A stretch of DNA of 64,000 nucleotides from Betaproteobacteria bacterium (GTDB lineage Bacteria > Pseudomonadota > Gammaproteobacteria > Burkholderiales > Rhodocyclaceae). The stretch is taken from assembly GCA_016208415.1 (NCBI GenBank), contig JACQYB010000040.1, positions 1 through 64,000 on the forward strand. The letters run 5' to 3'. Below are positions 25,291-50,584 of the stretch, in pieces (within the stretch, counting starts at the first letter, position 1; each line of letters opens with the position of its first letter). The position numbers and the translations under genes are program-made. The notes under the pieces were generated by a model. The model was given only the letters and a program-made list of their open reading frames with translations, was not told where the DNA came from and did no database searches.

Positions 25291-25618
25291 GGTGTCGTGG
25301 TCCAGTCGCGGAACTGGCTATCAGCGTAGTCCACATTCGGACTCGATGCAACGTTGGTATGTGGCGCACGTCCTGGGCGCCAACGCGGCAATCCGAAGCG
25401 TCATCCCCGCCGCGGCCCCTGAACGACAGCCGACACTGCACGCAGTGTGCGGTTTCCGGGTCAAAGCCCGCGCGGCCACGCGGGGCGACGTTCCTTTGCC
25501 CGACGGCGATGCGCCGTCCACATCCGCACCCGCCTGCGACACTCTGTCGCACCCCGGCGCCTCGCGATGGGGATAGGATTTCCGGCAGTCGTCCAGCGCC
25601 AATGCGCGGGAGTGCCCC
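25291..25618. other. Gap between the Xre-RES pair and the SCO1 cluster
   Basis: A 328-bp divergent intergenic region. It contains the inverted repeat at 25328-25343 near the antitoxin start. I see no convincing gene in the rest, and no FNR box. Confidence 0.4.
25328..25343. promoter_or_regulatory. Operator-like inverted repeat of the Xre-RES pair
   Basis: AGTCC-ACATTC-GGACT lies 38 bp upstream of the Xre antitoxin start. Confidence 0.45.
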
Positions 25619-29827: not shown

Positions 29828-30475
29828 CTACGCGCTACTGCCCGTTTTCGCGCGCCCCGCCCCGCAGCGGCGCTTCTCGATGCGGCGCCGGCGATGGCTG
29901 TCGGCGCGAATCCTGGCGACGATGTCCCGGCCCGCCTTCTCCTGATGGGCTTCCAGTTTCCGCTGCAGCGTGCGCCGGTTCATCTTCAATTCGCGCGCCG
30001 CCGCCGACACGTTGCCGCCGTGGTCGCCCAGGGCCCGCAGGATGTGTTTCCACTCCAGCTCGTCCAGCGTATGGACCCGCTCGGGCTCGGAACCCGGCAG
30101 CCCCGCGGACGTCGACGCGGGGTCGATGCCCAGTCCGTGGAGGATTTCTTCCACATAGGCGGGCTTGGCCATGTAGTTCCAGGCCCCAAGCTTGATGGAG
30201 TAGATCGCCGTTTCGATGCTGGCGTGGCGGGTCAATACCAGGATCCTCATGGCGGGACAGATGGCTTTCAGCGGTCGGATCAGCCCGAGGCCCGACGCAT
30301 CGTCGAGTTGCTGCTCGATGATCGCGTAATCGGGGCGTGCGGCAGTGGCCGCGGTGATCGCCGAATCGGGATCGCGACACGAAACGGCCTCGAAGTGGCG
30401 CCGGCGCAGGGTACGGGTCAGGGTTCTGGAGTGGATCGGATCGTCGTCGACAATCAACATGCGCGCACAGGTCAT
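29828..30475 (-). CDS. RegA/ActR/PrrA-like response regulator with Glu at the phosphorylation site
   Basis: A 215-residue protein with a receiver domain (ILVVDDDP-like start, switch Thr in VLTRHAS, Lys in YMAKPAY) and a C-terminal Fis-type HTH (GGNVSAAARELKMNRRTLQRK). In this family the phospho-acceptor lies in YAIVDLRL; here the segment is YAIIEQQL, so Asp is replaced by Glu54 (codon GAG at 30316-30314). The paralogue at 40716-41354 keeps Asp. A Glu often mimics the phosphorylated state, so this copy may be always active. It is divergent from norC, and RegA proteins are redox-linked regulators, so control of nor is likely. The C-terminal 25 residues are unusually basic. Confidence 0.87.
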   Translation of the reverse strand: MTCARMLIVDDDPIHSRTLTRTLRRRHFEAVSCRDPDSAITAATAARPDYAIIEQQLDDASGLGLIRPLKAICPAMRILVLTRHASIETAIYSIKLGAWNYMAKPAYVEEILHGLGIDPASTSAGLPGSEPERVHTLDELEWKHILRALGDHGGNVSAAARELKMNRRTLQRKLEAHQEKAGRDIVARIRADSHRRRRIEKRRCGAGRAKTGSSA

Positions 30476-30861
30476 GGGCGAGGGCCTTGGGATGGCAGAT
30501 GCCCTGCTCCTATCAATCTCCGTGCCAGTGGAAAGGCGGGGGCCTGAATTCCGCTTTCTATCTAAAACAACGCCTTACATTTGCACGACAGAGTCCTGGG
30601 ATCACCCGGGGATCACCCTGGTGTCACCGAATGCCATAAGCGGCACCCGCAACCGCCATTACTGGCGTTCCCTTCTCGCCATCCCGGCTTCCTGCGCAAG
30701 CCGTTCGAACGGGCCACACTCGCCCGGGTCCAGGGACAGCCGGAAACGCCGCGGAATCGGGCCCTTCGAGGCCCTGCGACAATATGTAGCAAACCGCGCA
30801 CCGCCGCTCCCTGCCTGCGCGCAATTGCGGCCCCGCCTGTGTTTCCCGCGGCCCCCCCGTC

Positions 30862-30875
30862 TTGATGGCAGTCAA
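30862..30875. promoter_or_regulatory. FNR/DNR-type binding site upstream of norC
   Basis: TTGAT-GGCA-GTCAA matches the FNR/DNR consensus (TTGAT-N4-ATCAA) at 9 of 10 bases. Its centre is 41.5 bp upstream of the start point predicted from the -10 at 30898, the usual place for class II activation. A Crp/Fnr regulator is encoded at 49796-50584. Confidence 0.75.
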
Positions 30876-30951: not shown

Positions 30952-33398
<2,447 letters not shown>

Positions 33399-33402
<4 letters not shown>

Positions 33403-33656
33403 ATGCGCGCCGCCTCGATCTCGTCTTTGCTTTTCTCGTCGCTGCCACCGGCGTCACCTGGGTCGTGGGCGAGTCGGGTTCCGCCGGTCCGGCCGCGGTC
33501 GCGCTCATCCTCGGCCTGGCGTTCGCCAAGGGCTGGCTGGTGATCCGCGAATTCATGGTGCTGCGCCGCGCCTCGCTCCTCTGGAACCTGATCGTCGGCG
33601 GCTGGCTGACGCTGGTGCTGGCGATCATCGCACTGACCTACTGGAAGGCACTCTGA
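33399..33656 (+). CDS. norF: NorF-like small membrane protein (CoxIV-like)
   Basis: An 85-residue protein with three hydrophobic segments, including LGLAFAKGWLVIREFMVLRR, typical of prokaryotic CoxIV-like NorF. It overlaps norE (ATGA) and norQ (TGATG). Confidence 0.85.
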
Positions 33657-34453
33657 TGAACGCTGCTGCAAGCACTGAAATTCCCTACTACGAAGCCGCC
33701 GGCAACGAGATCGCACTGTTCGAGCACGCCTGGAAGAACCGCCTGCCGGTGCTCATCAAGGGTCCCACCGGCATCGGCAAGACGCGCTTCGTCGCCCACA
33801 TGGCGGCGCGGCTGCGCCTGCCGCTGTTCACCGTCGCCTGCCACGACGATCTCACCGCCGCCGACCTCGTCGGCCGCCACCTGATCGGCGACGGCGAAAC
33901 CTATTGGTCCGACGGCCCGCTGACGCGCGCGGTGCGCGAGGGCGGCATCTGCTACCTCGACGAGGTGGTCGAGGCGCGCAAGGACACCACTGTCGTCATC
34001 CATCCGCTCGCCGACCATCGCCGCGAACTGCCCATCGACCGCACCGGCGAGCTGCTGCATGCGCCCGACCGCTTCATGCTCGTCGTCTCCTACAACCCCG
34101 GCTACCAGAACTTCATGAAGGGCATGAAGCCCTCGACGCGCCAGCGCTTTGTCAGCCTGCGCTTCGACTTTCCCGGGGCGGCGCGCGAGGAAGCCGTCCT
34201 GCGCGGCGAGACCGGCTGCGACGACATGACCGCGAAGCGCCTCGTTTCCATCGGCCGCAGCCTGCGTGCACTCAAGGACGTGGATCTGGAAGAGGTGGCC
34301 AGCACGCGCCTGCTGGTCTACGCCGCGATCCTGATCCGCGCCGGCATGGAGCCGACCGAGGCCTGCCGCGCCACGCTCGTCGAAAGTCTCACCGACGACG
34401 CCGAAGTCGCGCAGGCGCTGATGGAGGTCGTGCTTGCCACCTTCGGCAAATAG
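33656..34453 (+). CDS. norQ: NorQ/CbbQ-type MoxR AAA+ ATPase
   Basis: A 265-residue protein with Walker A GPTGIGKT, Walker B GGICYLDEVVEARKDT and sensor segment YNPGYQNFMKGMKPSTRQRF, the CbbQ/NirQ/NorQ pattern. Together with the von Willebrand protein NorD it activates NO reductase, probably inserting the non-haem iron or remodelling the complex. Confidence 0.95.
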   Translation: MNAAASTEIPYYEAAGNEIALFEHAWKNRLPVLIKGPTGIGKTRFVAHMAARLRLPLFTVACHDDLTAADLVGRHLIGDGETYWSDGPLTRAVREGGICYLDEVVEARKDTTVVIHPLADHRRELPIDRTGELLHAPDRFMLVVSYNPGYQNFMKGMKPSTRQRFVSLRFDFPGAAREEAVLRGETGCDDMTAKRLVSIGRSLRALKDVDLEEVASTRLLVYAAILIRAGMEPTEACRATLVESLTDDAEVAQALMEVVLATFGK

Positions 34454-35417
34454 CGGCGAGGCGACCCAGCGCCTGCGCCTTGCCTTCCAGACGGGGTTTT
34501 TCGTGCTGTTCATCGTCGCGCCGGTGTTCGACCTCTTCCGCTACGACCTAACGCGCGGTCACGCCATTCTGCTCGGCTTCGAGTGGCGCCTGGGCCTCGA
34601 CGAGTTCTTCGCCGGGCGGATCAGCGCCACGCAGGCCGGCATCAACATCCTGCTGCGCCTGTTCCTGCCCATCTTCGGCGGCGCGGCGCTCTTCATCGCC
34701 GTCGCCTGGCGCTGGGGCCGGCTCTACTGCGGCTGGCTCTGCCCGCATTTCTCCGTCGTCGAGACCATCAACCGGCTCATGCGGCGCGCCAGCGGCAAGC
34801 CGAGCCTGTGGGAAGGAAAGGCCCTGCCGCCGAAGAACCCGGACGGCAGCACGTTCAGGGTCGACGCGCGCTGGTGGCTGCTCACGGTGCCGCTCGCCGT
34901 GGCTTTCGCCTTCCTCTGGGCGGTCGTGCTGCTGACCTACCTGCTGCCGCCGGCCGAGGTCTACGGCAATCTCCTCGCCGCCACGCCCACGCGCAACCAG
35001 GCCTTGTTCATCGGCGTCGGCACCTTCGTCCTGACGCTCGAATTCCTCTTCGCGCGGCACCTGTTCTGCCGCTTCGGCTGCGCCGTGGGGCTGTTCCAGA
35101 GCCTGGCCTGGATGGCCAACCGCGGCGCCATGGTGGTCGGTTTCGAGCGCGCCCGCGCCGCCGACTGCGCCGACTGCTACGACGCGGGCGGCCCCGGCCA
35201 TGCCGCCTGCGAGGGCGTCTGCCCGATGCGGCTGCGCCCGCGCGTGCCCAAGCACAAGATGTTCACCTGCACGCAATGCGGCCAGTGCATCGCCGCCTGC
35301 GGCACGGTGGAACGCAATCGCCCGGAGGGCACCCTGCTGCGCTGGGTGGACCGGGACGCCGCGCGCCGCAACGAGGCGCAGGTGAGCCTGACGGGCAAGC
35401 GCGATCCCCGGGAGTAG
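34434..35417 (+). CDS. NapH/CcoG-like 4Fe-4S membrane protein of the nor operon
   Basis: A 327-residue protein. The start is TTG at 34434, 20 bp inside norQ. Four or five TM segments carry the twin motifs YCGWLCPHFSVVE and CRFGCAVGLFQS of the NapH/NosR/CcoG group, followed by CADCYDAGGP, CEGVCPMRL and CTQCGQCIAACGT for iron-sulphur clusters. Genes of this type occur between norQ and norD in several betaproteobacteria. A role in electron supply or metal insertion for NO reductase is inferred. Confidence 0.88.
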   Translation: MPPSANSGEATQRLRLAFQTGFFVLFIVAPVFDLFRYDLTRGHAILLGFEWRLGLDEFFAGRISATQAGINILLRLFLPIFGGAALFIAVAWRWGRLYCGWLCPHFSVVETINRLMRRASGKPSLWEGKALPPKNPDGSTFRVDARWWLLTVPLAVAFAFLWAVVLLTYLLPPAEVYGNLLAATPTRNQALFIGVGTFVLTLEFLFARHLFCRFGCAVGLFQSLAWMANRGAMVVGFERARAADCADCYDAGGPGHAACEGVCPMRLRPRVPKHKMFTCTQCGQCIAACGTVERNRPEGTLLRWVDRDAARRNEAQVSLTGKRDPRE

Positions 35418-35420
35418 CAC

Positions 35421-37331
35421 ATGGAAGAATGGGTCGGCGGTCTGTGGGACCGCTTCATCACCAAGACAGCGCGGCGCGACCACCCGGAAGCCGCCGTGCA
35501 TCTGGCCGAGGTCGAGAAGATGCTCGGCGTGCTGTTCCGCGCCCTCGGCGGCGACGCCGGCCTGCGCGTCGCGCCCGCGGCAGACACGCGCCACGGCGCG
35601 CGCCGGCGTCTGCTCGAACGCGTCGCCGGCACTGGCGAGAAGAGCGCCCATGCCACGCTCGACCTGGAGACGTTGCGGCTGCCGCCTACGCTCGCCTGGT
35701 TTCCGGACAAGAAGCTCAATCGCGACCTGTATCTGTGGCTGATCGCGCTGGCCGCGGGCGCCGGCCCGGATTCGCTGGCCGCAGGCGCCGTCCCAGACGC
35801 GCGCGCGCCGGCAGCAAGCCATGGTCCATCGCCGGACGCCTGGCAGCTACGCAACCAGGTCGCCGTCCTCCGCGCGCTGAAACGCTTTCCCGGGCTGACG
35901 CCGCGTTACGAACGCCTGGTCGAGGCGGTGCTGGCCGAGCGCATCCCGCCCGATGCCTTGCCCGCCGACGAGGCCGCCCAGGAGCGCGCGCTGCGCGAAG
36001 CCCTGCGCGCCCCCGGCAGCGTCACCGCGCTGCCGCCGCTCGCCGGCCGCAAGTCGAAGCCGCTCCAGCCCGTGCCGCTGTGGATTTATCCGGCACCTCC
36101 AGCCGCAACGCCTGCACCACGCAAGGCCCCTGCCGCCGAGCCGCAGGACAGCGACGCCGGCGCGCAAAGCGCCGCGGAAAACCGCCACCATCAGGCCGAG
36201 CGCACCGAGCTGCCGGAAAACGAATCGCCTTTCATCCTCATGTTCCGCGCCGAAAGCCTGTTGTCCTGGGCCGAGTACGTGAAGGTCAATCGTGACACCG
36301 ACGAGGACGACAACCCCGACGCCGCGCGCGCCGCCGAAAACATGGATCGCCTCTCCATCGCCCAGGACGACGGCAAGCGGGTCGCGTCGAAGGTACGCTT
36401 CGACCTCGACCTGCCCGCCGCCGCGCAGGATGACATCGTGCTTGAGGAAGGCATCCTGCTGCCGGAATGGGACTGGCGCCGCCACGAACTCAAGCCCGGC
36501 TTCTGCCGCCTGCAGACCATGACGGCGCGCGACGCGACAGCGATCCCGCTGCCCGAGCGCCTGCGCCGGCCGGCGCGCAAGCTCCGAAGCCAGTTCGCCG
36601 CGCTCGCCCCGGCGCGGCGCTGGCTCAAGGCGCAGCCCGAGGGCACCGAACTGGACATCGACGCCTGCGTGCGCCTGCACACCGACCGACTTGCGGGCCA
36701 GCATTTCGCGGCAGCGGGCGCCTATCTGGCACAGAACCGGCACGAACGCGATCTGGCCTGCCTCGTGCTCGCCGATCTGTCCCTGTCGACCGATGCCTGG
36801 GTTTCGGACGAGCAGCGCGTCATCGATGTCATCCGCGACAGCCTGATGCTCTTCGGCGAGGCGCTGGGGGCCACCGGCGACGCCTTCGCCCTGCACGGTT
36901 TCTCGTCGCTCAAGCGCAGCCTGGTGCGCTTCCACGAGATCAAGGATTTCGCCGCGCCGTTCGACAGCGCGGCGCGCGGGCGCATCGCGGCGCTCAAGCC
37001 CGGCTATTACACGCGCATGGGCGCGGCGGTGCGCCACGCCGCCTCGATCCTGGAACGCCAGCCCGCCGCGCTGCGCCTGCTGCTGATCCTCTCCGACGGC
37101 AAGCCGCACGACATCGACCTCTACGAAGGCCGCTACGGCATCGAGGACACGCGCCATGCCCTGATCAACGCACGAAGCAAAGGCCTCAAGCCCTTCTGCG
37201 TCACCATCGACCGCGAAGGCGCCGCCTACCTGCCGCACCTGTTCGGGCCGGGCGGATTCACGGTGCTGAGGAAACCCGAGGAACTGCCGCTGCGCCTGCC
37301 GCAGCTTTATGCGCAGCTCACGGGGCGCTAG
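35421..37331 (+). CDS. norD: NorD, von Willebrand factor A domain protein for NO reductase activation
   Basis: A 636-residue protein of usual size for NorD. The C-terminal vWA domain (about 445-630) has the MIDAS motif LADLSLSTDAW and LILSDGKPHDID. The middle (about 225-265) is a low-complexity Pro/Ala linker. It works with NorQ. Last gene of the operon. A second, fragmentary copy of its MIDAS region lies at 40540-40667. Confidence 0.94.
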   Translation: MEEWVGGLWDRFITKTARRDHPEAAVHLAEVEKMLGVLFRALGGDAGLRVAPAADTRHGARRRLLERVAGTGEKSAHATLDLETLRLPPTLAWFPDKKLNRDLYLWLIALAAGAGPDSLAAGAVPDARAPAASHGPSPDAWQLRNQVAVLRALKRFPGLTPRYERLVEAVLAERIPPDALPADEAAQERALREALRAPGSVTALPPLAGRKSKPLQPVPLWIYPAPPAATPAPRKAPAAEPQDSDAGAQSAAENRHHQAERTELPENESPFILMFRAESLLSWAEYVKVNRDTDEDDNPDAARAAENMDRLSIAQDDGKRVASKVRFDLDLPAAAQDDIVLEEGILLPEWDWRRHELKPGFCRLQTMTARDATAIPLPERLRRPARKLRSQFAALAPARRWLKAQPEGTELDIDACVRLHTDRLAGQHFAAAGAYLAQNRHERDLACLVLADLSLSTDAWVSDEQRVIDVIRDSLMLFGEALGATGDAFALHGFSSLKRSLVRFHEIKDFAAPFDSAARGRIAALKPGYYTRMGAAVRHAASILERQPAALRLLLILSDGKPHDIDLYEGRYGIEDTRHALINARSKGLKPFCVTIDREGAAYLPHLFGPGGFTVLRKPEELPLRLPQLYAQLTGR

Positions 37332-37800: not shown

Positions 37801-38046
37801 GTGGAAACAGCAAAGGTGTTCTGGTCTGGCCGATCCCAGGCAGTACGTTTGCCCAAGGAATTCCGCTTCGAAGGCGAGGAAGTGCGTATTCGCCGGCACG
37901 GCGCGGGCGTCATTCTCGAACCGATCCCGACCGATTGGGCTTGGCTCGACGCGCTCACCGGCCCGGTTGATGCTGACCTTCAGCAAGCCGCCGCCGAACA
38001 GCCGGCGCCGCAGGAGCGGCCCGAACTGGACGATCTGTTCCGCTGA
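37801..38046 (+). CDS. vapB: VapB-type antitoxin
   Basis: An 81-residue protein starting at [23 protein letters not shown] is the classic VapB swapped-hairpin opening, followed by [16 protein letters not shown] and an acidic tail. Its stop overlaps the VapC start by 1 bp. Confidence 0.9.
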
Positions 38047-38447
38047 TGCGCTTCCTGCTCGACTCCAACGCCGTGATCGCTTTGCTGAACGATCCGGCGG
38101 GCCATGTTTCGCGGCGCGTCCGGCAATATCGGCCGGCCGACATCGGCCTCTCCGCCGTCGTCATGCACGAGCTCTATTTCGGTGCGTTCAAGAGCCAACG
38201 GCGCGACCGGAATCTGGCCATCGTTGACGGGCTTCGGCTGGAGGTCATCGCCTTCGACCAGGAGGATGCGCGGCACGCCGGAGAGATACGTGCCGCGCTG
38301 GCCGCACAAGGCACGCCGATCGGTGGCTACGACGTTCTGATCGCAGGTCAGGCTCGCGCTCGCGCCCTGACACTGGTGACGCGGAACCTGCGCGAGTTTC
38401 AGCGCGTGGACGGTCTGCGTCTCGAAAACTGGGAGGCTGGAACATGA
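38046..38447 (+). CDS. vapC: VapC-type PIN RNase toxin
   Basis: A 133-residue VapC with the PIN acids in FLLDSNAVIALL, VVMHELYFGA, GGYDVLIAGQA and LVTRNLREFQRV. It is coupled to VapB by a TGATG overlap. Confidence 0.93.
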   Translation: MRFLLDSNAVIALLNDPAGHVSRRVRQYRPADIGLSAVVMHELYFGAFKSQRRDRNLAIVDGLRLEVIAFDQEDARHAGEIRAALAAQGTPIGGYDVLIAGQARARALTLVTRNLREFQRVDGLRLENWEAGT

Positions 38448-38793
38448 GCGACAACGCCTACGTCTGCACATTCTTTCCGGGACGCGCACGCGCAACTCGT
38501 CAACACGCGCTTCGTCCGCGTGCTTGCGCAATGCCGCGAGTGCCGCCCCAAAACGCTTTCCCTCACTTTCATCGGATTCGCATTCCCCGCCGGCCTGACA
38601 CGTGCGGCACCGTGACGGACAGGGCGTTGGACGTGTCCACCCGGAGCGGAGCAGTCGCCCGCGCCTACAAAGTCGGTCTGCTCGCGCAACACCGGAACGC
38701 TGATGCACGTCAAAGTTGATCAGAGCAGAAGATGGGGATCCGACGGGGGTCGCCAGGACCTGGAGGAGCGGCCGAAGCCGGTCGCGGAAACGA
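38448..38793. other. Gap between two TA pairs
   Basis: 346 bp without a recognised gene. A frame overlapping the vapC stop (38444-38719, 91 codons, very Arg-rich) has no family features and is probably spurious. On the minus strand a stretch reading KRFGAALAALRKHADEARVD looks protein-like and may be the relic of a lost gene. Confidence 0.35.
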
Positions 38794-39213
38794 TTACTGC
38801 CTGTCCGCCACGTTTGGCACCAGCCAGTTCTCCACCACCAGCCCGGGCACGCGCGAGAACTCGCGGACGTTGTCGGTGACCAGCACGGCGCCGTGAGCCA
38901 CGGCCTGGGCGGCTATCCAGGTGTCGTTGGCGCCAATGGGCGTGCCCTGCCGTTCCAGTGCGGCGCAGACGCGTGCGTAGCAGAGGCTGACCTTGGCATC
39001 GACGACGGCCATCGGCATGCGCGCTGCCAGGTCCGCCAGACGCGCGCGGTTTCGCTCGGAGTGCGCGCTTTTCTCGGCGCCGAACGCCAGTTCGCCGAGC
39101 ACGACACACGACAGGAGCAGACTGGCGAGAGGCGTGCCGTCGAGCCGGCCGCGCACTTCCGGGTGCCCCTTGAGGGACGCGATGACGATGTTCGTGTCGA
39201 GCAGGTAGCGCAT
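38794..39213 (-). CDS. vapC: VapC-type PIN RNase toxin
   Basis: A 139-residue VapC (FitB/VapC type): MRYLLDTNIVIASLKGHPEV, VVLGELAFGAEKS, GANDTWIAAQA and LVTDNVREFSRV supply the PIN acids. It starts 3 bp after a Phd/YefM-type antitoxin, a common pairing. Confidence 0.92.
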   Translation of the reverse strand: MRYLLDTNIVIASLKGHPEVRGRLDGTPLASLLLSCVVLGELAFGAEKSAHSERNRARLADLAARMPMAVVDAKVSLCYARVCAALERQGTPIGANDTWIAAQAVAHGAVLVTDNVREFSRVPGLVVENWLVPNVADRQ

Positions 39214-39216
39214 CGC

Positions 39217-39447
39217 TCAGTCCAGCGACGGCACGGGCTCGGCGGGGGCATCGGCGGGCGCTTCGATATCGATGTCCTCTTCGGTCCAGAACGGGCGAAA
39301 GACATCCGCGGCCATCCTCGGCGCCTCGGGGACCAGTCGGGCGATCACCCTTCCATGGCGGGTGATGGCGATTTCGGCCCCGCCTTCCACTTCGGCAAGC
39401 AACGCGGAGAGATGGGATTTCATCTCAACGACCGGCACGGTTCTCAT
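39217..39447 (-). CDS. Phd/YefM-type antitoxin
   Basis: A 76-residue protein: VPVVEMKSHLSALLAEVEGG and ITRHGRVIARLVPE form the Phd fold, and the acidic C-terminus binds the toxin. A long perfect inverted repeat lies just upstream. Confidence 0.9.
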   Translation of the reverse strand: MRTVPVVEMKSHLSALLAEVEGGAEIAITRHGRVIARLVPEAPRMAADVFRPFWTEEDIDIEAPADAPAEPVPSLD

Positions 39448-39456
39448 GCTGGGCTC

Positions 39457-39488
39457 CTGATATTGTGACCATATGACCACAATATCAG
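39457..39488. promoter_or_regulatory. Operator of the Phd-VapC pair
   Basis: CTGATATTGTG (39457-39467) and its perfect complement (39478-39488) flank a 10-bp spacer, 9 bp upstream of the antitoxin ATG. It fits autoregulation by Phd dimers. Confidence 0.75.
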
Positions 39489-39555
39489 CATGTAAGCCAG
39501 AACTCAACCGCGCGCTTTCGCGCCGCACGGGGCGCTCCTGCGGGCGCGCCCGCGT

Positions 39556-39612
39556 GCTCACTTCTTGTTCGAGGCGCGCAGCGAGCGCGGCGGCCGACAG
39601 ATTGCCGCCAGA
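39556..39612 (-). pseudogene. Remnant of a RegA-like response regulator gene
   Basis: On the minus strand SGGNLSAAA (start of the Fis HTH) is joined directly to the last residues SLRASNKK and a stop, in different frames. The intact gene at 40716-41354 has the same pieces about 45 residues apart (GGNLSAAARALG, then SLRPSNKE). The DNA around the stop is nearly identical between the two. It is a deletion relic of a third RegA copy. Confidence 0.7.
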
Positions 39613-39710
39613 TGGGTCTGCACGGTGCGGTAAAGCACCGTGCGCTCGGGTTGGCTGCGGTAATGGAAAGTGCTGCGCGACGACGCGCGGGTGGCGGTGG
39701 CGGGCAGGGT

Positions 39711-39729
39711 TGTTAACTACTGCTTAACA
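39711..39729. promoter_or_regulatory. Operator-like inverted repeat of the RelE/HigBA pair
   Basis: TGTTAA-CTACTGC-TTAACA lies 30 bp upstream of the toxin gene. Confidence 0.5.
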
Positions 39730-39758
39730 TCAAGCGCCAATCCATTTACTATCGCCGC

Positions 39759-40016
39759 ATGCTTGCGTTGCGCTTTGCCAAGCCTGCCATCAAGGCGCTG
39801 CTCAAAATGCCAGCCGGCATTGCCGGGCGGATGCGCGCTGAGCTGGATGCCGTCGTCGCCGACCCGACCGCCTATCGCGGCGACTGGAAGCCGCTGCAAG
39901 GTTCGGACTTCTGGCGCTTGCGGGTGGGCGACTGGCGCGCGATCTGCGATTTGCGCGACGCAGAACTGGTGTTGCTGGTAGTCAAGATCGCACCGAGAGG
40001 AGACGCATACAAATGA
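39759..40016 (+). CDS. RelE/ParE-superfamily toxin
   Basis: An 85-residue basic protein: LALRFAKPAIKALLKMP, GDWKPLQGSDFWRLRVGDWR and LVVKIAPRGDAYK are typical of RelE/HigB mRNA interferases. The toxin gene precedes the antitoxin, as in HigBA loci, and overlaps it by 4 bp. Confidence 0.92.
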   Translation: MLALRFAKPAIKALLKMPAGIAGRMRAELDAVVADPTAYRGDWKPLQGSDFWRLRVGDWRAICDLRDAELVLLVVKIAPRGDAYK

Positions 40017-40369
40017 GCGTACAAATCATCGAACTGAACGGGGTGCCGGCTTTCGCCGTGGTGCCGATGGACGAATGGAATACTTTGCTCGCCCGCCTGG
40101 AAGACGCGCAGGACATGGCCGACGCCAAGGCGGCGCGCGATACTGAGAACTTTCCTGCCGAGTTTGCCGATCGTCTTCTGGCAGGTGAATCGCCGTTGCG
40201 CGTCTGGCGCGACCATCGCGGCCTGACCTTGCAGGCGCTTGCCGAATCCTGCGGCGTGACGCGCCAGATGCTCTCGATGATCGAACACGGCAAGGCCAAG
40301 CCATCGGCTGACCTGCTCGGCAGGCTGGCCGGTACGCTCGGCTGTGACATGGACGATCTTCACGGCTGA
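40013..40369 (+). CDS. XRE-type antitoxin of the RelE-like toxin
   Basis: A 118-residue protein. The N-terminal third resembles a Phd/prevent-host-death stretch (PAFAVVPMDEWNTLLARLED). The C-terminal HTH_3 domain (RDHRGLTLQALAESCGVTRQ, then MIEHGKAKPSADLL) binds the operator. Confidence 0.88.
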   Translation: MSVQIIELNGVPAFAVVPMDEWNTLLARLEDAQDMADAKAARDTENFPAEFADRLLAGESPLRVWRDHRGLTLQALAESCGVTRQMLSMIEHGKAKPSADLLGRLAGTLGCDMDDLHG

Positions 40370-40715: not shown

Positions 40716-41354
40716 TCACTCCTTGTTCGAGGGGCGCAGCGAGCGCCGCCGGCGCTGCGGTACCCGCTTGCGGATCTCGCCCAGCAGGTCCTTTCCTGCG
40801 GAATCGTTGCGCGCCGCCAGCTTGCGTTGCAGCGTGCGGCGGTACATGCCCAGCGCGCGCGCGGCGGCCGAGAGATTGCCGCCATGCTCGCGCAGGGCGC
40901 CGACGATCAGCTTCCATTCGAGTTCGTCGAAGCCGCGCTTGCCTCCCGGCATGGGCGCTCCCTCTTCCCCGGCCAGCGCGACCGGATCGATCCCCAGCGA
41001 CGAGATGATCTCCTCGATGTAGGCCGGCTTCGCCATGTAATGGGCGGCGCCGAGCTTGATCGAGTCGACGGCGGTCGCAATGCTGGCGTAGCCGGTCAGG
41101 ACCAGTATCCGCATCGCCGGGTTGATCGCTTTCAGGGGGCGGATCAATCCCATGCCGGAGTGCGCGCCCAGGCGCAGGTCGACGATTGCATAATCGGGCG
41201 GCAGCGTCCCGGCGCTCGCCAGTGCATCGTCGCACTTGCGCACGGAAGCGGCTTCGAAGTGGCGCATGCGGAAGGCGCGCGTCAGGATACGCGCCAGATC
41301 CGGATCGTCTTCGACGATCAGGACCCTCTTTCGGCGGCTCATTTTTCTCTGCAT
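40716..41354 (-). CDS. RegA/ActR/PrrA-like response regulator (intact phospho-Asp)
   Basis: A 212-residue protein (start ATG 41354, or 41342 at MSRRKR). Receiver: VLIVEDDPDLARIL, phospho-Asp59 in YAIVDLRLGAHSG, Thr/Lys switch in VLTGYAS and YMAKPAY. C-terminus: Fis-type HTH GGNLSAAARALGMYRRTLQ. It is clearly paralogous to the Glu54 protein next to norC and probably answers a RegB/PrrB redox kinase that is not in this window. Confidence 0.9.
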   Translation of the reverse strand: MQRKMSRRKRVLIVEDDPDLARILTRAFRMRHFEAASVRKCDDALASAGTLPPDYAIVDLRLGAHSGMGLIRPLKAINPAMRILVLTGYASIATAVDSIKLGAAHYMAKPAYIEEIISSLGIDPVALAGEEGAPMPGGKRGFDELEWKLIVGALREHGGNLSAAARALGMYRRTLQRKLAARNDSAGKDLLGEIRKRVPQRRRRSLRPSNKE

Positions 41355-48426: not shown

Positions 48427-48615
48427 ACGGCTGCGTCCGCGTGTCGACCCGGCTGCGGCGTCGGCGTGTCGACCGGGCAGCGCAGCGCGCGTCGTGGCCG
48501 GGAGGCGGCATCGGCGTTTCGCCTGCACCGGGATGCGACAAGATGCCGCACGGGCCGAGTATTCGCAGCGGCTAATATGGGGCGGAGGAATTTCCAACCG
48601 CCCAAGGAGTCCGCC

Positions 48616-49239
48616 ATGGATCGCCGCCATATGCTCAAGCTCTCCCTGCTCGCCGGTACCGGACTGGCCGCCGGCAGCGCCCTGGCCCAGCAGGCCTGCC
48701 CAGGCGACGGCACGCCGTCGCAGTTCGTGCCGAAGAAGGCCGCCGACGCGAAGGCGGCCGAAAACGATATCGAGAAATTCCCGAAATGCCCCTACTGCGG
48801 CATGGACCGCAGGCAGTATCACCATTCCCGGATGCTCATCCAGTACAGCGACGACCTGCCCGACGGCACCTGCTCGATCCACTGCGCCGCCATCAGCCTG
48901 TCGCTCAACATCGACCGCGAGCCCAAGGCCATCTGGGTGGGGGACAACGCGGCAGCGGGCGAGGTCAAGCCGCTGGTCGAAGTGGACCGCGCCACCTTCC
49001 TCATCGGCAGCAAGATCCCGGGCGTCATGACAGCCCAGAGCAAGGTCGCCTACGGCACCGAGGACGCCGCCAGGGCCGCCCAAGCGGCCAACGGCGGCGA
49101 GCTGGGCAATTTCGACAAGGCCTTGCTGGCGGCCTACACCAGCATGTCCCAGGACGTGTCCCGCATCCGCAAGAACCGCGCCGAGCGGCGCCGCAAGATG
49201 ATGGAACAGCAGGGCAGGCCCATGGAGCACAAGTCCTGA
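48616..49239 (+). CDS. NosL-family protein with a Tat-like signal
   Basis: A 207-residue protein. The N-terminus (DRRHMLKLSLLAGTGLAAGS) resembles a twin-arginine or Sec signal with AQQA cleavage. The NosL-type core has CPYCGMDRRQYHHSRMLIQY and GTCSIHCAAISL. NosL delivers Cu(I) to N2O reductase. The His-rich stretch after CGMD and the long basic C-terminus are unusual. It is coupled to a second NosL by a TGATG overlap. Confidence 0.83.
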   Translation: MDRRHMLKLSLLAGTGLAAGSALAQQACPGDGTPSQFVPKKAADAKAAENDIEKFPKCPYCGMDRRQYHHSRMLIQYSDDLPDGTCSIHCAAISLSLNIDREPKAIWVGDNAAAGEVKPLVEVDRATFLIGSKIPGVMTAQSKVAYGTEDAARAAQAANGGELGNFDKALLAAYTSMSQDVSRIRKNRAERRRKMMEQQGRPMEHKS

Positions 49240-49795: not shown

Positions 49796-50584
49796 ATGCG
49801 CGGCGATTCCCCCAGAAAATTGGCAAGCGACGACCACAGCGCCTGCCCCCTGCGGCGGACCCTGGCCAGCACGGGAATCACCATAGAAGTTCTGACGGGC
49901 CTTCATGCCCATATCGAAAGGCCGAAATTCCGGCGCGGCGAAATCCTGTTCCACATGTGCGCACCGGCCGACAGCGTCCATTGCCTGCGCCACGGTGTCG
50001 TCAAGCTGGTGCGCTACGACAGCGACGGCACCGAGCACATCGTGCGCATACTCGGGGCTGGCGAAGTGGCCGGCCTGGAATCGATCTTTCGCGATGAGTT
50101 CGCACACACGGCCATCGCGCTGGGGAACGTGGAAACCTGCCGGATTCCCTTCTACTACTTCCGGAACCTCATCGCGCAACATGAGGAGTTCCGGATGCAC
50201 ATCCTGGCCATGTCGCAGGAAGCCCTGCGCCAGGCGGACGCCTGGCTGGCCGAACTGGTCTATGCCGCCATTCCGGCCCGGGTGCGTACCGCCCGGTTGC
50301 TGTTGCGCCTACGCATCGACGACGGCGACCGCATCCACTGGCTCAACCTGGAAGACATGGGATCCATTCTCGGGGTCGCACCCGAAACCGTCAGCCGCGT
50401 GCTTTCCGGCTTCCAGCGTGCGGGCATCCTGTGGCGCGTCGGCAGCGGCTTCGCGAACCGCCACTACCGTGGCGACATCGCCGCCCTGACAAGGATATCC
50501 CGGGAAGGGGAGGCGCATCGATGGCGGCGGCAATTGCGGCAGGCGCGCGTCGCACGCGGCATATTCCGCCTGCGCGGCGCATGA
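49796..50584 (+). CDS. Crp/Fnr-family transcription regulator
   Basis: A 262-residue protein with a cyclic-nucleotide-binding fold (FRRGEILFHMCAPADSVHCL to VKLVRYDSDGTEHIVRILGA) and a C-terminal winged HTH (LEDMGSILGVAPETVSRVLS). It lacks the four-Cys arrangement of oxygen-sensing FNR, so it is closer to the DNR/NNR or other Cys-poor groups. The HTH element E(T)VSR should read TTGAT-type boxes such as the one before norC. The last 30 residues are Arg-rich and not typical. Confidence 0.88.
   Translation: MRGDSPRKLASDDHSACPLRRTLASTGITIEVLTGLHAHIERPKFRRGEILFHMCAPADSVHCLRHGVVKLVRYDSDGTEHIVRILGAGEVAGLESIFRDEFAHTAIALGNVETCRIPFYYFRNLIAQHEEFRMHILAMSQEALRQADAWLAELVYAAIPARVRTARLLLRLRIDDGDRIHWLNLEDMGSILGVAPETVSRVLSGFQRAGILWRVGSGFANRHYRGDIAALTRISREGEAHRWRRQLRQARVARGIFRLRGA

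Follow-up and report, generated by a model that had tools for sequence, protein, structure and literature searches.

Gene organization around norC

The window, as the whole 64,000-nucleotide stretch of Rhodocyclaceae DNA analyzed here will be called, carries a nitric oxide reductase (nor) gene cluster and, divergently oriented from norC, a gene encoding a RegA-like regulator. The genes concerned are listed below, together with their conservation in two related genomes: G029, which is Candidatus Nitricoxidireducens bremensis, and G023, a closed 2.70-Mb genome that is probably Ca. Nitricoxidivorans perseverans.

29828 to 30475, reverse strand: RegA-like pseudo-receiver regulator with Glu54 (receiver and Fis-type helix-turn-helix, HTH), divergent from norC
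30952 to 31386, forward strand: norC, cytochrome c subunit of nitric oxide reductase, divergent neighbour of the Glu54 gene
31409 to 32782, forward strand: norB, catalytic subunit (COX1 family)
33656 to 34453, forward strand: norQ (CbbQ/NirQ/NorQ AAA ATPase)
34434 to 35417, forward strand: NapH/CcoG-like 4Fe-4S membrane protein within the nor cluster, conserved in G023 and G029
35421 to 37331, forward strand: norD-like protein, last of the nor cluster, conserved in G023 and G029 (named by synteny, without a Pfam match)
40716 to 41354, reverse strand: Asp54 paralogue (motif IVDLRL) of the same subfamily, with a full receiver pocket

Across three orthologous loci, norC is 88-93% identical. The stretch from norD to the Asp54 paralogue (37801-40369) contains several toxin-antitoxin-like pairs, VapBC-like and RelE/HTH-like by eye.

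A RegA-like protein with a pseudo-receiver domain

The gene at 29828-30475 has an intact reading frame of 215 amino acids, in which Pfam recognizes a Response_reg domain (PF00072; residues 7-112, 1.5e-17) and an HTH_8 domain (residues 136-176, 1.9e-11). Residue 54, the phospho-Asp position, is Glu (codon GAG, motif IIEQQL). This agrees with the initial annotation, which had described a RegA-like regulator with Glu in place of the phospho-Asp next to norC, as well as a paralogue retaining Asp about 10 kb away; the latter is the IVDLRL protein at 40716-41354, which is 55% identical to the Glu54 protein. The further statement that every other receiver feature is kept stands only in part. It holds for the acidic pair (D10, D11), T82, Y101, K104 and the HTH. 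It fails at T+1, where Arg83 replaces the Gly or Ala of nearly all relatives, and at D+1, which is Gln55 instead of Leu; moreover, D11 is lost in the G029 orthologue. In normal receivers, a small T+1 residue opens the phosphorylation site to access (PMC12632262).

The AlphaFold2 model of the Glu54 protein has a mean pLDDT of 91, and its nearest solved relative in both fold and sequence (42% identity) is 3rqi, a Burkholderia RegA-like protein with a phosphorylated Asp. Its recognition helix, RRTLQRKL, is the same as in the Asp copies and in canonical RegA. In the curated RegA/ActR/PrrA equivalog model NF033791, the protein scores 116.2 bits against a cut-off of 250, the Asp paralogue reaching 124.2. 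It shares the RegA-type Fis HTH and recognition helix with this family, while the phospho-Asp, a place within the canonical RegA clade and a cognate RegB in the genome are all missing. A pseudo-receiver is defined as a recognized receiver without at least one of D, DD, T and K (PMC12632262). Judged from its sequence, a recognized PF00072 receiver with Glu at D, the Glu54 protein is by this definition a pseudo-receiver (atypical) response regulator and, by the curated model, not a RegA/ActR/PrrA equivalog. It is nevertheless predicted to work like a RegA-family regulator.

The genome from which the window derives is 99.96% complete and contains no canonical RegA; besides the Glu54 protein, it has just the Asp paralogue. 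A search of this genome for a RegB orthologue found none, the best match (3e-13) covering the kinase core only, and no regB adjoins the Glu54 gene. RegB orthologues are present in G023, G029 and a third genome, G088 (the G023 and G088 proteins being 58-59% identical to that of G029), and these three genomes also retain canonical RegBA.

Occurrence in relatives and probable loss of switching by phosphorylation

Of 136 distinct RegA-like sequences, 132 carry Asp at position 54 and four carry Glu; the query is additionally listed in this tally as a row of its own. The four Glu54 sequences comprise three norC-divergent copies and one lying within a nor cluster. Copies divergent from norC are known from four genera, represented by the window, G029, G023 and G088; at a strict cut-off, none beyond these was found in 399 genomes of the family, nor was such a copy found in four further genomes of the genus of G029. 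The alignment of nor-adjacent RegA proteins that the initial annotation had proposed as a check shows E54-Q55 in three of the four norC-divergent copies (window, G029 and G023), and Glu54 again in a fifth nor-linked copy, which converges on norD in the nor cluster of Rhodocyclaceae bacterium BROCD002. A sequencing error or a change limited to one strain is rejected by this recurrence in three genera and BROCD002. BROCD002 also has an Asp copy, located near SCO1 and nosL-like genes.

The G088 copy departs from this pattern: it reads Asp54-Gln55, its acidic pair is Gly-Ala, Thr82 and Lys104 are replaced by Ala and Ile, respectively, and its HTH is conserved. All five nor-linked copies are thus pseudo-receivers, versus four of four sister copies elsewhere that keep Asp and the pocket. 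Since G088 retains Asp54 and has lost DD, T and K, the common feature is a lost phosphorylation switch and not a Glu mimic.

This bears on the possibility that Glu54 is a phospho-mimic, making the protein permanently similar to phosphorylated RegA and driving nor constitutively wherever it is made. T82, K104 and Y101, which a Glu mimic would need, are kept in all E54 copies, and Glu, the residue that most often replaces the phospho-Asp, can act as a phosphate mimic in some regulators (PMC4395418, PMC12632262). Glu alone is, however, often insufficient, and ChxR DNA binding survived replacement of its Glu (PMC4395418); Arg83 might moreover neutralize Glu54 in the window copy. Mimicry does not explain the G088 copy, and the abandonment of the pocket by a different route in that copy weakens the strict form of this reading. 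We regard it as the case in a minority of conceivable outcomes, albeit a sizeable one, and as a reading that may apply to the E54 copies.

Alternatively, the altered receiver may take another input, such as a ligand, cysteine or copper chemistry, or a different modification. Rhodobacter capsulatus RegA binds copper and dimerizes via a disulfide without phosphorylation (PMC9147068), and ligand binding is known for some pseudo-receivers (PMC12632262). Against this, the alignment reveals no cysteine common to the nor-linked copies, and we consider such an input unlikely.

In a maximum-likelihood tree, a subfamily of nine sequences stands apart from all canonical RegA proteins (support 100/100). 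Within it, the four norC-divergent copies group together (100/96), as do the two copies of BROCD002 (100/96); the remaining three members are the Asp copies of the window, G023 and G029. According to the best tree, pseudo-receivers arose on two separate occasions. A single clade of all five nor-linked copies is absent from it, though not rejected (AU p 0.129), so that one or two losses of the phosphorylation switch are both compatible with the data; a clade of the three norC-divergent E54 copies without G088 gives an AU p of 0.25. The five nor-linked pseudo-receivers are accordingly not independent points.

Whole-gene dN/dS is 0.29-0.31 for the E54 copies and 0.24-0.33 for the Asp copies of the same three genomes, values that were obtained by the Nei-Gojobori method and are rough at such distances, dS being near saturation. 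Relaxed selection on the E54 copies was not seen, their dN/dS equalling that of the Asp copies and pointing to purifying selection of the same strength. Confinement of Glu54 to one strain with relaxed selection across the gene, the outcome named beforehand as speaking against a functional copy, is therefore not what we find, as Glu54 recurs in other genera.

The same data address whether the receiver is simply degenerating after duplication, leaving a declining relic near norC. The pocket residues lost differ between genera, no such copy was found in the four further genomes of the genus of G029, and the G088 branch is exceptionally long (2.09), from which its receiver may be decaying or heavily remodelled. 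Intact frames, a dN/dS like that of the Asp copies, and a conserved promoter, box and synteny make decay as a general explanation very unlikely.

Predicted regulatory elements between the Glu54 gene and norC

The intergenic region and two further sites in the window contain the following predicted elements.

30512 to 30527, reverse strand: sigma-54-type promoter TGGCACG-N4-TTGAT, beginning at position -52 relative to the regA start codon
30776 to 30790, forward strand: putative RegA-type operator GCGACAATATGTAGC, lying in a 17-bp block and beginning 176 bp upstream of the norC ATG
30862 to 30875, forward strand: FNR/DNR-type box TTGATGGCAGTCAA, beginning 90 bp upstream of the norC ATG
25536 to 25550, forward strand: second box of the RegA type, with a single mismatch, in front of the SCO1/ABC gene group
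48535 to 48549, forward strand: third box of the RegA type, with a single mismatch, in front of the nosL-like gene at 48616

All four norC-divergent loci share the 17-bp block GCGACAATATGTAGCAA without any change; it starts 174-177 bp before the norC ATG and lies a near-constant 86-87 bp upstream of the FNR/DNR-type box. Its flanks are otherwise poorly conserved, and the longest common block in 2000 dinucleotide shuffles was 8 bp. Even in G029, where the block overlaps the end of an inserted activator gene, it is unchanged. It resembles the boxes of RegA, PrrA and RegR: compared with the RegR and PrrA motifs given in PMC5506826, the norC box has two deviating bases, a match that about 3% of random 25-mers equal. 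An exact copy of the R. capsulatus-style box GCGGC-N-GTCGC was not found before norC; this published motif is so degenerate as to be uninformative, since 20% of random 25-mers match it when at most one mismatch is allowed. In the window, a CRP/FNR-family regulator gene near nosL (49796-50584, forward strand) encodes a candidate protein for the FNR/DNR box before norC.

Exact boxes occur in the homologous SCO1-group and nosL promoters of G029 and G023, and both genomes also have similar boxes in front of their Asp copies, as does G023 in front of regB. The SCO1/ABC and nosL-like boxes may delineate a small copper/denitrification regulon. Over six genomes and both strands there are 18 exact matches versus 7 for the reversed control; at one mismatch, no genome-wide excess over the reversed control was seen. 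The norC box of BROCD002 has two mismatches. In a further genome, G137 (L164), the box is found 177 bp before norC though only canonical RegA was found there, which indicates that it is not exclusive to the Glu copy. From its distribution, the norC box is best read as a general operator of the RegA group.

That the Glu copy works alongside a phosphorylatable paralogue, as originally suggested, is plausible on these grounds, since the two proteins share a recognition helix and boxes of this kind stand before the likely targets of the Asp paralogue. A shared helix and the same kind of box would also suit an antagonist, occupying the norC box or forming inactive heterodimers with phosphorylated RegA paralogues and so damping them. 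WhiI/BldM is a known heterodimer involving an atypical response regulator (PMC12632262), and canonical RegBA is also retained in G023, G029 and G088. The window genome, on the other hand, has no canonical RegA to oppose, only the Asp paralogue, and Bradyrhizobium RegR acts positively on norC (PMC4064962). Antagonism is a rather doubtful explanation.

Upstream of the regulator gene itself, TGGCACG-N4-TTG(A/T)T is present 46-53 bp before the coding start in 4/4 norC-divergent copies and in 0/4 Asp copies; such a site occurs in 0.27% of random 300-bp pieces. In the sigma-54 consensus used for comparison, the -12 element is TTGC, and each site has one mismatch to the consensus, always at the C of TTGC. 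Having TTGAT or TTGTT at -12 could weaken the predicted promoter. No good sigma-54 site was found before the BROCD002 Glu54 copy.

Genes for PAS/sigma-54 activators accompany two of the nor-linked copies. In G029, one sits between the Glu54 regulator and norC (L031:8798-10186); its product scores 260 bits, well under the NorR cut-off of 476. A homologue (L054:8433-9872) adjoins the BROCD002 copy divergently, and the activators in other genomes are 53-68% identical to that of G029. A search for a common upstream activating sequence of a sigma-54 activator found no shared 6-mer.

Discussion

Kinase independence and dedication to nor, as put forward in the initial annotation, are supported by synteny in four genera, by the five of five pseudo-receivers among nor-linked copies versus intact receivers in all four sisters, and by the conserved RegA-like box. 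Linkage to nor is conserved, the gene being divergent from norC in four genera and inside the nor cluster in a fifth. The constitutive activity that the initial annotation also put forward is a hypothesis, so that its interpretation is borne out in part. With a receiver of this composition, the Glu54 regulator is very probably kinase-independent. It likely acts at the predicted norC box, and we think it rather an activator than a repressor of norC, with fair assurance. The supply of the regulator through sigma-54 appears moderately probable from the conserved promoter motif.

In the model we favour, a sigma-54 activator would drive synthesis of the Glu54 regulator from the TGGCACG-N4-TTGAT promoter. 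The regulator would be locked in a binding-competent state by its sequence, that is by Glu54 together with T82 and K104, or by the other pocket changes in G088. It would dimerize on GCGACAATATGTAGC, 176 bp before norC, and most likely co-activate together with a protein of the FNR/DNR type sitting 86 bp downstream of it. The signal input would then be the amount of protein and the FNR/DNR partner, not RegB. Control is probably exerted by the amount of regulator made and not by a kinase. Taken as a whole, the moderately favoured interpretation is, in our estimate, a RegA paralogue that works without phosphorylation, is probably supplied through sigma-54 and acts jointly with an activator of the FNR/DNR type at the norC operator. 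Precedents exist for its parts: Bradyrhizobium RegR binds and activates norC independently of the kinase RegS (PMC4064962), all four tested forms of Acidithiobacillus RegA, phosphorylated-like as well as unphosphorylated ones, bind target DNA (PMC5506826), and synthesis has been proposed in general as the control point of constitutively active pseudo-receivers (PMC12632262).

With RegA/ActR/PrrA/RegR (NF033791), the protein shares the receiver and Fis-type HTH, the recognition helix, a similar DNA box and, in the case of RegR, the link to denitrification and norC. It differs in its score (116 versus 250 bits), its separate clade (100/100), the replaced phospho-Asp and the lack of an adjoining regB. 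With the pseudo-receivers ChxR, HP1043 and WhiI it has in common the missing phosphorylation site, Glu as the commonest replacement and possible control through supply. Unlike in those systems, the copy adjoins its likely target and a phosphorylatable paralogue is present in the same genome; to our knowledge, none of the three is of the RegA/Fis-HTH type. As for NorR, the NO-responsive sigma-54 activator of nor, the regulator gene adjoins nor and sigma-54 is probably involved upstream, but the Glu54 protein is not itself a sigma-54 activator.

In the literature searched, we found no paper on a nor-linked atypical RegA. New here are the predicted 17-bp norC operator block and the sigma-54-type promoter before the norC-divergent copies. 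How bacterial pseudo-receivers are switched on and off was called a mystery in a 2025 review (PMC12632262), and at this locus a pseudo-receiver can be tested together with its predicted operator and promoter and with a phosphorylatable paralogue encoded by the same genome.

More tentatively, a two-component switch may have been converted, perhaps twice and each time beside nor, into a supply-controlled factor, in which a sigma-54 promoter replaces the kinase input and the DNA box, common to it and its phosphorylatable paralogues, is kept; in NO-respiring bacteria, this would free nor from redox sensing by RegB. Ca. N. bremensis, and probably also the second of these organisms, was enriched on nitric oxide as electron acceptor (PMC10390337), and the control of nor in such NO-enriched organisms bears directly on NO and N2O turnover.
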